Assembly: GCA_029007845.1 (NCBI GenBank)
Contig: JAQXIP010000104.1
Coordinates: forward strand, 1-64,000
Direction: 5' to 3'
Source: Clostridiales bacterium
Lineage (GTDB): Bacteria; Bacillota; Clostridia; Lachnospirales; Lachnospiraceae
Length of the DNA stretch: 64,000 bases
The notes under the pieces were generated by a model. That model was not told where the DNA came from. It saw only the letters and a list, made by a program, of their open reading frames with translations, and made no database searches. The position numbers and the translations under genes were made by a program. Position 1 is the stretch's first letter, and each line of letters begins with the position of its first letter. This document shows positions 5,263-56,352 of this stretch, piece after piece.

Positions 5263-5306
5263 TGAGTTTTGCCATTCTTTTCTCCTTGTGGTATGATAAG
5301 TATATT

Positions 5307-5520
5307 GAAACTTCGCACATGTGAATCAGGCGGTATGCCGGGACGTGCAGGGGATGCGATGTATTATGAAATACTCGCTTTCGCTAGTTGAACACGTAAC
5401 GGTACTAAGGTTTTGTATGCGCAAAACCAAGTGCCGACGTGTTCAAAAAGTATTTCATAATACATCGCATCCCCTGCACGTCCCGGCATACCGCCCGATT
5501 CGCATGTGCGAAGTTTGAGT
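5307..5520. repeat. Palindromic repeat element, copy 2 (complete)
   Basis: gaaacttcgcacatgtgaatcaggcggtatgccgggacgtgcaggggatgcgatgtattatgaaatac ... reverse complement on the right side ... gcgaagtttgagt. Confidence 0.95.
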
Positions 5521-5564
5521 AAAAATAAAAAATGTAAGAATAAAGAAAGAGAGATGGAAACAAC

Positions 5565-7640: not shown

Positions 7641-7698
7641 TTTTTTCGTTTTATGTTGATGTCCGCAAGCGCACATCACCATAAAACTCATTATATCA
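7641..7698. repeat. hairpin-containing direct repeat, unit A
   Basis: ttttttcgttttatgttgatgtccgcaagcgcacatcaccataaaactcattatatca. Confidence 0.8.
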
Positions 7699-7718
7699 CG
7701 TCGACTGCGTCGCCGTGC

Positions 7719-7777
7719 TTTTTTTCGTCTTATGGTGATGTTCGCGAGCGCACATCACCGCAAAACTCATTATATCA
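7719..7777. repeat. hairpin-containing direct repeat, unit B
   Basis: tttttttcgtcttatggtgatgttcgcgagcgcacatcaccgcaaaactcattatatca; internal inverted repeat GGTGATGTtCGCgaGCGCACATCACC. Confidence 0.8.
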
Positions 7778-35946: not shown

Positions 35947-36163
35947 GTAATAGTTCAGCCGTAACGAGCGCAAAGCCGCCGGAAACATGCAGAATACCAG
36001 GGACCATGAAATACCCGCTTTTGCTTCATTGAACACGTAGCGGTACTAAGGTTTTGCAAAAAACCGCAAAACCAAGTGCCGGCGTGTTCAAAGGGATATT
36101 TCATGGTACCTGGTATTCTGCGTGCTTCCGGCGGCTGTGCGCTCGTTACGGCTGAACTGTTAC
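35947..36163. repeat. Palindromic repeat element, copy 3 (same core, unrelated arms)
   Basis: gtaatagttcagccgtaacgagcgcaaagccgccggaaacatgcagaataccagggaccatgaaatac ... gatatttcatggtacctggtattctgcgtgcttccggcggctgtgcgctcgttacggctgaactgttac. Confidence 0.95.
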
Positions 36164-50659: not shown

Positions 50660-52657
50660 ATGAGAAAAAAAGGAATTGCGTGGATTCTTGCCGTTATTAT
50701 GACTGCAACCTCTGTATGTGGGATGGGAACGGTCAGTTATGCGAAAGAACCGGTGGAGCTTGAGAGCACACAAGAGGTGTCCGAGGAAGAACAAAAAGCA
50801 TATGAGGAATCAGGGGAAATGATTGTAAAGGTGGATTCCCAGGACGATATGGAAGCATTAGAGGAAAGCCTGGAATCAGATGCCACGGTGACCCCGATAT
50901 CCGATGACTATGCACTGGTTGAGGTAACCGATTCCGAGAATGTGATGGAGACGGTATCAGAACTTCAGGACAGCCCGTATGCAGGGCAGGTACAGCCGAA
51001 TATTGTCTACCAGATCCAGGATGAGGGGGGTTCTGCCCAGGCGTTAAGTTTTGATGCAGATACACTGAATGACAAATATTATAAATATGAGTGGTGGGCA
51101 AGTGGAGAGTCATTTACCGTAAAATATAGGGATGGCTCAGAAGAAACGATATCTGTTAATCCAAATGCCGCCATGAATCTGAAAGAGGCATGGGCATCTT
51201 ATGTTGGCATCAAGCCGGTGACCGTTGCGGTTATTGATACCGGAATCGACATCGGACATGAGGATCTTACCGGAGTGATCTGGACAAATCAGGGGGAAAT
51301 CCCGGATAATGGTCTGGATGATGATGGAAATGGTTATGTGGATGATGTCTATGGCTGGGATTTTTACAAGGATGATAATACCGTAAATGACAAACGGAAG
51401 TTTACCTATTATGATGAAGAAACAAACAAATCTTATCAGGCATACGAAGATGATCATGGAACCCATGTGGCAGGGATTATTGCAGCAAATGCCAATAACT
51501 CGGTTGGAATTGCAGGGGTGGCAAGTAATTGCAATGTAAAGATTATGCCGGTAAAGGCTCTTGGTGGAAAAAACGGGACAACCAATACAGCGAAACTCAT
51601 TAATGCGATTCAATACGCGGAAAATATGGGAGCCGATGTGGTAAATGCAAGCTGGGCAGGAGAGAGTGGAATGTTACTCGTTGATGAGGCACTCTATGAT
51701 ACCGTTAAAAATTGCGGAATGCTGTTTGTCTGTGCGGCAGGAAATGAAGGTAAGAATCTGGATTCCAAGCGGGTGATACCGGCATGCTATTCGAATCTTT
51801 CCAATGTCATTACCGTTGGTGCCATAGACCCGGACGGAACGAAAGCTAGTTATTCCAATTATGGCTCCTATGTAAACTTGTTTGCACCAGGAACAGATAT
51901 TACCAGTTCGGTAGTGGAAGAATGGAATCTGATGAGTGGAACTTCCATGGCTTCTCCTATGGTAGCCGGAATTGCAGCCATGATCTACTCATACCGGGAT
52001 GATTTGTCTCCATCTGTTGTGAAGAAGTATTTACTATCCCATACAAAGAGCCTGTCAACGCTTGCGGCCGGTTCAGCAAAAATCACCGGTGTTCCGGATG
52101 CCAAAGCGGTTGTAGATGATTTCTCCACGCTGGATGGTGCAAAGGATATGACAGCACCAGTGATTGGCTATTTAAGGGCAAACTATAAAGGCGTGGTTAC
52201 AGCAACTGTAAAGGATAACGGAACTGGTGTTGCCAGAATGCGCATCGCCAAGGGAGAACGGACGGCTTCCTATTTTAAAAACGGAATGAAGGGCAGCAAA
52301 TTTAGTGGAAGTTTCCAGGTGAAATCATCTGGAACCTATACGCTCTATGCGATGGATTACAGCAGAAATGAAACCGTGAAATCCATTCGGGTGACAGTAG
52401 ATAAAACGGCACCGAATGTAGGAATCAAGGTAAATGGAAAGAAGGCAGTGATTACGGTAAAAGACAATGCCTCCGGGGTATCGAAGGTGCGTTATGCAAA
52501 AGGAAAACACGGCACTACTTATTTTAGTGCCAGCGGGAAAAACGTATCCCTTTCTTCCTCAAAGGCAACACTGCGAAATCTGGCAAAAGGGACTTATACG
52601 TTATATGCCGAAGATAAAGTCGGAAATGAGAAGGTAAAAACTTTCACAATTAATTAG
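50660..52657 (+). CDS. secreted subtilisin-like (S8) serine peptidase with C-terminal Ig-like repeats
   Basis: 665 aa; signal peptide; VAVIDTGIDIGHEDL (Asp), DDHGTHVAGIIAAN (His), SGTSMASPMVAGIAA (Ser). Confidence 0.95.
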   Translation: MRKKGIAWILAVIMTATSVCGMGTVSYAKEPVELESTQEVSEEEQKAYEESGEMIVKVDSQDDMEALEESLESDATVTPISDDYALVEVTDSENVMETVSELQDSPYAGQVQPNIVYQIQDEGGSAQALSFDADTLNDKYYKYEWWASGESFTVKYRDGSEETISVNPNAAMNLKEAWASYVGIKPVTVAVIDTGIDIGHEDLTGVIWTNQGEIPDNGLDDDGNGYVDDVYGWDFYKDDNTVNDKRKFTYYDEETNKSYQAYEDDHGTHVAGIIAANANNSVGIAGVASNCNVKIMPVKALGGKNGTTNTAKLINAIQYAENMGADVVNASWAGESGMLLVDEALYDTVKNCGMLFVCAAGNEGKNLDSKRVIPACYSNLSNVITVGAIDPDGTKASYSNYGSYVNLFAPGTDITSSVVEEWNLMSGTSMASPMVAGIAAMIYSYRDDLSPSVVKKYLLSHTKSLSTLAAGSAKITGVPDAKAVVDDFSTLDGAKDMTAPVIGYLRANYKGVVTATVKDNGTGVARMRIAKGERTASYFKNGMKGSKFSGSFQVKSSGTYTLYAMDYSRNETVKSIRVTVDKTAPNVGIKVNGKKAVITVKDNASGVSKVRYAKGKHGTTYFSASGKNVSLSSSKATLRNLAKGTYTLYAEDKVGNEKVKTFTIN

Positions 52658-52659
52658 TA

Positions 52660-52876
52660 ACTCAAACTTCCCACACCCGTATCAGACGGAATGCCTGGCG
52701 TACAGGGGAATGCGATGGATTATAAAATACCCGCTTCCGCTATTTGAACACGTAGCGGTACTAAGGTTTTGCTTGCGCAAAACCAAGTGCCGACGTGTTC
52801 AAAAAGTATTTTATAATCTATCGCATCCCCCTGTACGCCAGGCATTCCGTCTGATACGGGCGTGGGAAGTTTTAGT
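52660..52876. repeat. Palindromic repeat element, copy 4
   Basis: actcaaacttcccacacccgtatcagacggaatgcctggcgtacaggggaatgcgatggattataaaatac ... gtattttataatctatcgcatccccctgtacgccaggcattccgtctgatacgggcgtgggaagttttagt. Confidence 0.94.
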
Positions 52877-53027: not shown

Positions 53028-55160
53028 ATGATGAAGAAGGTAATAAAGCGTGATGGCCGTGTTGTTGATTATGACCGGAATAAGATATTAATTGCAATCC
53101 GGAAGGCGAATCTGGAAGTAGATGACCTGGAAAAGATTTCGGAGGAAAAAATTGAGGGAATCGTAGCCGGCATTGAAAATGTGAAACGGGATACGATGCA
53201 GGTGGAGGAAATTCAGGATCTGATTGAACAGAAGCTGGTAGCCGAGGGAAAATATGTACTGGCAAAGACCTATATTATTTATCGTTACTCCAGAGAACTG
53301 GTGCGCAAGGCGAATACGACGGACGAATCCATTATGAGTCTGATAAAAAACAGTAACAAAGACGTGATGGAGGAAAATTCCAATAAAAATGCTACGATTG
53401 CATCGACCCAGCGGGATCTCATTGCAGGGGAAGTATCCAAGGATCTGACAAAGCGCCTGCTTCTCCCAGAGAAGATTGCAAAAGCACATGAAGAAGGAAT
53501 CCTTCATTTCCACGATGCCGATTATTTTGTGCAGCCAATCTTTAACTGCTGTCTGATTAACATTGGGGACATGCTGGATAACGGAACCGTTATGAACGGA
53601 AAACTGATTGAAAGTCCAAAAAGCTTCCAGGTGGCATGTACCGTCGTTACCCAGATTATTGCCGCAGTTGCCAGTAGCCAGTATGGTGGACAGTCTGTGG
53701 ATGTGCGTCATCTTGGAAAATATTTAAGAAAAAGTTATGAAAAATATAGAAGACATTATGAAGAAAAATACAGTGGACAGATTTCAGAGGAACTGATTGA
53801 CCAGTTTATCCATGACCGCCTGTATGATGAATTGAAATCCGGTGTACAGACGATCCAGTATCAGATTAATACACTGATGACGACCAATGGACAGAGTCCT
53901 TTTGTTACTTTATTTTTAAATCTTGACAAGAATGATGAGTATATCAAAGAGAATGCCATGATTATCGAGGAGATTCTCCGTCAGCGCATCGAGGGAATCA
54001 AGAACGAAAAAGGTGTTTATGTGACACCGGCATTCCCGAAACTGATTTATGTGCTGGATGAACATAACTGCCTGAAGGGCGGAGAGTATGATTACCTTAC
54101 AAGACTTGCAATCCGCTGCTCAGCCAAAAGAATGTATCCGGATTATATTTCCGCTAAAAAGATGCGGGAAAACTATGAAGGAAATGTATTCAGCTGTATG
54201 GGCTGCAGAAGTTTTCTGACTCCTTGGAAAGATGAAAATGGGAATTACAAATTTGAAGGCCGTTTTAACCAGGGGGTTGTAAGTATTAATCTTCCGCAGA
54301 TTGGAATTATTGCAGACGGTGATGAGGAAATGTTCTGGCAGCTGTTAGAAGAACGTCTGGGACTCTGCTTTGAGGCGCTGATGTGCCGCCACAGGGCATT
54401 GGAGGGAACTCTTTCGGATGCCAGTCCGATTCACTGGCAGTACGGAGCCATTGCAAGGCTGAAAAAAGGAGAGAAGATTGATAAGCTGCTGCATGGCGGT
54501 TATTCTACCATCTCCCTTGGATACATTGGGTTATATGAAGTGACAAAGCTCATGACCGGATGTTCCCACACCGAGCCTAAGGGGCTGGATTTTGCCCTTC
54601 GTCTGATGAAACGGCTCCGCCGTGCGACCGATACCTGGAAGGAAGAAACCGGTATTGGGTTTGGTTTATACGGCACACCGGCAGAATCCCTGTGCTACCG
54701 GTTCGCCAATATTGATAAGAAGAAATATGGAAGTATTCCGGATATTACCGATAAAGGGTATTACACGAACTCCTACCATGTGGATGTACGGGAGAAAATA
54801 GATGCTTTTGAAAAATTCCGTTTTGAGAGCCAGTTCCAGACCATCTCATCTGGTGGTGCCATCTCTTATGTAGAGATTCCGAATCTCAGAAATAATCTGG
54901 AAGCTCTTGAGGAAGTTGTGAAATTTATCTATGAGAATATTCAGTATGCGGAGTTTAATACAAAATCCGATTACTGTCATGTATGTGGTTATGATGGAGA
55001 GATTATCATCAATGATGATTTTGAGTGGGAATGCCCACAGTGTCACAATAAAGACCATAATAAAATGAATGTTACAAGAAGAACCTGCGGCTATCTTGGG
55101 GAAAACTTCTGGAATGTCGGTAAGACAAAAGAAATTAAAGCCAGAGTGCTTCATTTATAG
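53028..55160 (+). CDS. nrdD: anaerobic ribonucleoside-triphosphate reductase
   Basis: N-terminal ATP-cone KVIKRDGRVVDYDRNKI; LMTTNGQSPFVTLFLNL; C-terminal CHVCGYDGEI..CPQCH and glycyl-radical RRTCGYLG. Confidence 0.97.
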   Translation: MMKKVIKRDGRVVDYDRNKILIAIRKANLEVDDLEKISEEKIEGIVAGIENVKRDTMQVEEIQDLIEQKLVAEGKYVLAKTYIIYRYSRELVRKANTTDESIMSLIKNSNKDVMEENSNKNATIASTQRDLIAGEVSKDLTKRLLLPEKIAKAHEEGILHFHDADYFVQPIFNCCLINIGDMLDNGTVMNGKLIESPKSFQVACTVVTQIIAAVASSQYGGQSVDVRHLGKYLRKSYEKYRRHYEEKYSGQISEELIDQFIHDRLYDELKSGVQTIQYQINTLMTTNGQSPFVTLFLNLDKNDEYIKENAMIIEEILRQRIEGIKNEKGVYVTPAFPKLIYVLDEHNCLKGGEYDYLTRLAIRCSAKRMYPDYISAKKMRENYEGNVFSCMGCRSFLTPWKDENGNYKFEGRFNQGVVSINLPQIGIIADGDEEMFWQLLEERLGLCFEALMCRHRALEGTLSDASPIHWQYGAIARLKKGEKIDKLLHGGYSTISLGYIGLYEVTKLMTGCSHTEPKGLDFALRLMKRLRRATDTWKEETGIGFGLYGTPAESLCYRFANIDKKKYGSIPDITDKGYYTNSYHVDVREKIDAFEKFRFESQFQTISSGGAISYVEIPNLRNNLEALEEVVKFIYENIQYAEFNTKSDYCHVCGYDGEIIINDDFEWECPQCHNKDHNKMNVTRRTCGYLGENFWNVGKTKEIKARVLHL

Positions 55161-56189: not shown

Positions 56190-56352
56190 TGTTACAACGT
56201 TACAGTTTGAATCTTCGGATGGCGCAAACAGGCGATGTACAAGAGATGCCCTGTGTCATGAAATACCCGCTTTCGCTATTTGAACACGTAGCGGTACTAA
56301 GATTTTGTAACGTTGTAACAGAAATTTCATAATGTAACAGAAATTTCATAAT
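56190..56352. repeat. Palindromic repeat element, copy 5 (internal-deletion derivative) plus 19-bp tandem duplication
   Basis: TGTTACAACGTTAC (56190-56203) and GTAACGTTGTAACA (56307-56320) flank the left half arm and left half core; right half missing; gtaacagaaatttcataat x2 at 56315-56352. Confidence 0.85.

Follow-up and report, generated by a model that had tools for sequence, protein, structure and literature searches.

The palindromic repeat at positions 52660 to 52876 of the window, i.e. the whole stretch of 64,000 nucleotides analyzed here from a Clostridiales bacterium of the Lachnospiraceae, is a MITE-like element, a short non-autonomous transposon with conserved ends, 8-bp target duplications, and no gene. 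Our results suggest that it is probably a Lachnospiraceae palindrome made of two conserved modules, the ends and a tip of ~85 nt, with arms that drift while being kept matched in the source copy. Copies transpose with an 8-bp target duplication, their arms differ in a paired manner between subfamilies and decay single-sidedly in place, and the tip evolves by compensatory change and carries a GNRA tetraloop on one strand. The real selection on the fold sits in this tip, which a preliminary description of the element had not singled out.

The 52660 copy (subfamily A2, no strand assigned) is one of ~102 core-bearing copies in the genome. Its left arm (52660 to 52730, plus strand) has at its outer end CTCAAACTTCCCAC, the terminal inverted repeat of subfamily A, which is also visible in the copies compared, and its right arm (52806 to 52876, plus strand) is 94% complementary to the left arm over 71 nt. 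The element as a whole folds as a single long hairpin, far beyond chance (z = -22.3 as RNA and -22.7 as DNA). It lies between a subtilase gene (50660 to 52657, PF00082), the stop codon of which is 3 nt upstream, and an anaerobic ribonucleotide reductase gene (53031 to 55160, PF13597) starting 155 nt after it. Elsewhere in the window, and likewise without assigned strand, are an A1 copy with its left arm cut by the contig start (1 to 170), a second A-type copy, also of subfamily A1 (5303 to 5521), a subfamily B copy with the same tip and unrelated arms (35947 to 36163), and a half copy (56232 to 56307) that is truncated at the tip and has an arm of yet another type, subfamily C. Across the genome, the core was matched 96 times by its left half, 93 times by its right half, and 87 times by both, giving the ~102 copies, which were taken with their flanks as loci L132 to L233 (the 52660 copy being L217, which starts at window position 51446). 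The arms of these copies fall into kinds A, B, and C plus single copies; the kinds are mutually dissimilar and each is self-complementary, and the tip is nearly invariant. An unrelated second hairpin repeat is present at 7641 to 7777 of the window, as two 58-nt copies that are 79 nt apart and 90% identical.

Subfamily B copies start and finish with GTAACAGTTCAGCC, and their terminal repeat GTAACAGTTCAGCCGT, the end of which was matched 158 times in the genome, is conserved among copies. Direct target duplications of 8 bp scored at least 6 of 8 in 18 of the 31 subfamily B copies with both arms, as compared with 2.2% for mismatched flanks. The element ranges in size from 41 to ~220 nt and is gene-free throughout; no recurrent protein family was found in the flanks, and a gene travelling with the element was rejected because the neighbors of the copies are unrelated housekeeping genes. 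Shorter derivatives of 41 to 128 bp keep both ends, and six deletion derivatives (L386, L387, L388, L389, L391, and L397) are bordered by perfect 8-bp repeats. The internal junction, at short homologies, differs from one deletion derivative to the next, which is what deletion within an unstable palindrome would be expected to leave. Given these separate microhomology junctions, the derivatives lacking the core look like deletions made in place and were not accepted as evidence that mobility can do without the tip. Among the matches listed, no long element shared the B ends. IS66, suggested as the mobilizing family by the GTAA ends and the 8-bp duplications, is absent from this genome, and the Y1/RAYT family gave no PF01797 match with positive controls, so that a search of the IS66 and Y1 families in this 88% complete assembly yielded neither a transposase nor a source copy. 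BLAST searches against phages and plasmids and a search for the core pattern in viral contigs gave no match.

Some features of the insertions may be noted alongside. Subfamily A copies (e.g. at 52650-52662, and at loci L167, L179, L190, L217, and L229) often start 0-8 nt past a stop codon, and their insertion sites resemble TTAGTAA, possibly a target preference. Several of the one-ended half copies (L394, L398 to L405, and window 56232-56307) break off right at the tip or close to it, as though the hairpin had been cleaved at that point. In some copies (the right flank of L206 and the left end of L182), one arm has been swapped for unrelated sequence with the tip left intact.

The sequence letters quoted in the preliminary description are all present in the window: the copies at 1-170 and 5303-5521 carry CGGTATGCC/GGCATACCG and ATGAAATA/TATTTCAT, and the 52660 copy carries CGGAATGCC/GGCATTCCG and ATAAAATA/TATTTTAT at the same arm sites. 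The site proposed as a wobble, GATGGATT/AATCTATC, is a G-U pair on the plus strand only; on the strand bearing the GNRA tip it is an A.C mismatch, unpaired in the predicted fold. Three more arm mismatches of the 52660 copy had been passed over, namely ACTC/ACTA, near the element end, CACAC/CACGC, within what had been called the outer segment, and GGGGA/GGGGG. At the level of subfamily consensus sequences, the arms of A1 and A2 differ by 9 paired substitutions and 2 paired gap columns, with no single-sided difference; A1 and A4 show 8 paired and 1 single-sided substitutions and A2 and A4 show 7 paired and 1 single-sided. Transversions make up 5 of the 9, 6 of the 8, and 4 of the 7 fixed paired substitutions, respectively, and paired transversions allow no passage through a G-U step.

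Within copies, the picture is different. Over 2046 cells of the subfamily B arms, 63 are paired changes, 164 are single-sided, and 6 have both arms differing; shuffling the right arms among B copies gives 20.1 +- 5.0 paired cells. Among variants private to a single copy, B has 7 paired and 29 single-sided ones, and A has 1 paired and 13 single-sided. The comparison of at least 10 same-site insertions common to two species of one genus (genomes G230 and G595) gave, outside the core, 56 single changes versus 2 pair-preserving double changes, with 17 of 63 changed arm pairs remaining paired, in 60-nt arm windows that include some chance pairs from flanking DNA. The statement that the arms diverge together is therefore true between subfamilies, with all A1/A2 differences paired, and pairing within copies exceeds the shuffled level, but most changes within copies are single-sided. 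Mostly unpaired arm substitutions, which had been named as evidence against the original proposal, are largely what individual copies show (164 versus 63 in B, 56 versus 2 in orthologs) and not what is seen between subfamilies. Together, the paired fixed differences and the single-sided decay in place indicate that copies receive their arm pairing from the source and that it decays afterwards.

These counts bear on other explanations of the arms. Paired arms and chimeric copies could be assembly artifacts, as the palindrome has 100 copies and the draft genome is fragmented. Its 115 contigs, many ending within a copy, and a copy palindromic into its flanks at a contig end (L159) give some reason for caution; yet the B copies with a target duplication, a restriction which excludes wrong assembler joins, agree with the full set (35 paired and 82 single-sided), and the family is present in other assemblies, including a single-contig genome, making an artifact very improbable. 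Another possibility is that RNA-level selection acts on the fold of the entire hairpin, including its arms, in which case the arm changes would be compensatory mutations. This would account for the excess of paired arm cells over shuffling, the very stable predicted fold, and the covariation of the tip, but half or more of the fixed paired differences are transversions and the orthologous arms change on one side. A strand bias in wobble-compatible arm mismatches, proposed at the outset as a check for RNA selection, is also lacking, the counts by strand being 59/49 in B, 30/28 in B copies with a target duplication, 12/11 in A, and 109/100 in 100 copies from other genomes and genera. The data thus lend no support to RNA-level selection on the arms, which we regard as decidedly unlikely. 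The arms of resident copies might instead be continually corrected in place by hairpin-templated repair or replication, since template switching of this sort is documented (PMC3820800, PMC8604942) and chance would yield almost none of the 7 private paired variants of subfamily B. On the other hand, the same copies hold the 29 private single-sided variants, the orthologs show the small share of pair-preserving changes given above, and the private paired variants are equally explicable by inheritance from unsampled source copies, so that in-place correction appears improbable, if slightly less so than selection on the arms. Of the two causes first put forward, selection on the fold or re-copying of one arm from the other, RNA selection on the arms is hence unsupported and frequent repair in place is disfavored, whereas re-copying or selection may act in the propagating lineage.

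We favor an origin of the arm pairing in that lineage. The transposon would need its ends and its tip and would accept arms of any sequence as long as they match in the source, leaving the arms between ends and tip free to drift while the source copy stays self-complementary. Paired arm differences would most likely arise when the folded hairpin lets one arm serve as the template for the other, by quasi-palindrome template switching or by repair of a hairpin intermediate, and daughter copies would inherit matched arms that then decay. We infer such re-templating in the source lineage because the differences that became fixed fall on both arms, extend to gap columns and transversions, and have no single-sided residue. 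The data thereby separate two look-alikes within one sequence, inherited matching of arms and true compensatory evolution.

The latter is found in the tip. In the 52660 copy, the conserved structured tip, an RNA-like core matched by model R1 over its full length with 95 bits, occupies 52726 to 52810 on the minus strand. On that strand, it comprises the mini-hairpin P5 (52733 to 52740, GC-GGAA-GC, with the GNRA tetraloop), helix P2 (first side 52746 to 52753, GAACACGT on plus; second side 52793 to 52800, ACGTGTTC on plus), helix P3 (52757 to 52761, GGTAC on plus, with its partner GTGCC at 52787-52791), and the apical helix P4 with its loop (52765 to 52784, GGTTTTGC TTGC GCAAAACC on plus). In 106 aligned hits, 26 of the 28 tip pairs show double changes, and the covariation score of 0.450, as compared with 0.063-0.110 when partners are slid, was reached by none of 500 shuffles, in an alignment that was fitted to the structure and for which the ortholog comparison serves as the independent check. 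The two-pair mini-hairpin has a GNRA loop on the minus strand in 103 of the 106 hits, and its pairs switch from G-C to A-U and from C-G to U-A across hits. Covariation, the GNRA loop, and pair switching speak for an RNA. The rarity of G-U in P2, where 751 pairs are Watson-Crick, 4 are G-U, and 5 are A.C, and the middle pair of P3, which is C.A on the GNRA strand in 50 of the 106 hits, speak against it and would suit a role at the DNA level, or the opposite strand, better.

The ortholog comparison supports constraint on the tip. Of 13 changed tip pairs, 12 remain paired versus the 17 of 63 in the arms (Fisher p = 1.6e-5, or p = 5.0e-4 with the other species folded), although half of these tip changes, including 4 of the 6 double ones, come from one locus (L415/L429); when this locus is left out, the other 6 tip changes all still keep pairing. 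Identity is 0.959 in orthologous cores versus 0.866-0.901 in the 160 nt around them, and at several loci the cores are identical even though their flanks can no longer be aligned. Copying between loci is no explanation because every locus retains its own P2 and P4 sequence. Old copies in the genus of G230 are thus constrained in place. In the window's genome, non-consensus cells amount to 2.8% in the tip, 2.9% in the outer 16 nt, and 6-10% in the inner arms, and variants private to a single copy occur equally often in the tip (1.5%) and in the arms (1.6-1.8%). This indicates that during this recent burst, constraint acted on the ends and tip of the propagating lineage but not on single copies; here, the tip shows no constraint once it has been inserted.

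Whether the tip acts as RNA or DNA can be weighed on the same data. It might work as a folded DNA single strand to which a transposase or another structure-specific protein binds, in the manner of REP or IS200/IS605 hairpins, and the almost strictly Watson-Crick covariation of P2, the conserved C.A/G.T mismatch of P3, and the GTAG and CGTC motifs close to the helix would be in agreement with this. So would the genus of G230, in which copies have no preferred orientation relative to genes; a right-hand bias (56 versus 21), obtained with crude ORF calls for the window's genome, is not found in that genus, and no conclusion on copy orientation is therefore drawn. However, the third tetraloop position is a purine in 103 of 106 hits, which points to an RNA GNRA loop, single tip changes between orthologs lead to G-U 6 times and to A.C once on the GNRA strand, and the Y1 transposases, absent from this genome, do not make 8-bp target duplications. 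A DNA tip is on balance unlikely, although it deserves to be kept in view. We favor a structured RNA read from the minus strand, which the propagating element would need and which some hosts would have retained in place; its likeliest role would be that of a protein-bound or processed hairpin.

The covariance model built for the tip matched 138 of 397 sampled Lachnospiraceae genomes, and all 10 genomes matched in a class-wide sample of 391 were Lachnospiraceae. Named records bearing it include Lachnospiraceae, Butyrivibrio, Pseudobutyrivibrio, Agathobacter, and metagenome bins, with a few labelled otherwise. In about a third of the family, true compensatory mutations maintain the fold of the tip. 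It is present in a third of the species sampled from this dominant gut family, cultured Butyrivibrio and Pseudobutyrivibrio among them, which makes its expression, mobility, and binding accessible to direct tests. Its constancy, while ends and arms are exchanged around it, suggests that propagation or retention acts on the tip itself. More tentatively, and with somewhat less than even confidence, the sequence comparisons would allow for a new structured RNA of the Lachnospiraceae that palindromic transposons with unrelated ends carry and have spread across the family, that they require in order to propagate, and that some hosts have kept in place as a functional RNA. The element matches no known RNA family; at Rfam gathering thresholds, the window matches tRNAs only, and at loose thresholds, the strongest of the weak hits are to microRNA models with long hairpins, at scores far short of the respective cut-offs. 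No description of it was found in the literature searched, the supplements of one microbiome-RNA catalogue (PMC8040213) lying outside the comparison.

Several known systems share some of these properties. Repeats of the ERIC and BOX type are long imperfect intergenic palindromes with RNA-like conserved folds and a modular build. The element described here, compared at sequence level with Rfam and the BLAST collections, resembles them in kind only, and they belong to other lineages. Like bacterial MITEs (reviewed in PMC10969869), it is short and gene-free, has terminal inverted repeats and direct target duplications, and occurs in ~100 dispersed copies with deletion derivatives; unlike them, it has a structured center that is conserved across genera despite wholly different arms and ends, and its parent IS was not found among the IS66 and Y1 families searched here. 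Quasi-palindrome template switching (PMC3820800, PMC8604942) would copy any type of substitution as well as indels between arms, as seen between subfamilies, but here it would have to be at work in the lineage that propagates and not often in copies already in place. Resemblance to the REP/REPIN and RAYT system (PMC3733652, PMC3116915) lies in high-copy hairpins, conserved mismatches, GTAG/CGTC motifs by an inner hairpin, and frequent divergent close pairs. The element differs in that these motifs sit at the P2-P3 junction inside a longer helix, paired or in a loop within a 217-nt palindrome, with no unpaired tag at the hairpin foot, and in its 8-bp target duplications and the absence of a RAYT-type Y1 transposase from the genome.

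The close pairs, which recall REPIN doublets, consist of tips at most ~500 nt apart in divergent order, minus then plus, as at L035, L243, L247, L250, L254, L262, L272, L313, and L316 and near positions 110135, 515285, and 2852164 of contig G414:C1; convergent close pairs of tips were not seen. In another genome of the family, three tips stand in tandem, 187 nt apart (G133:C21:12438-12897).
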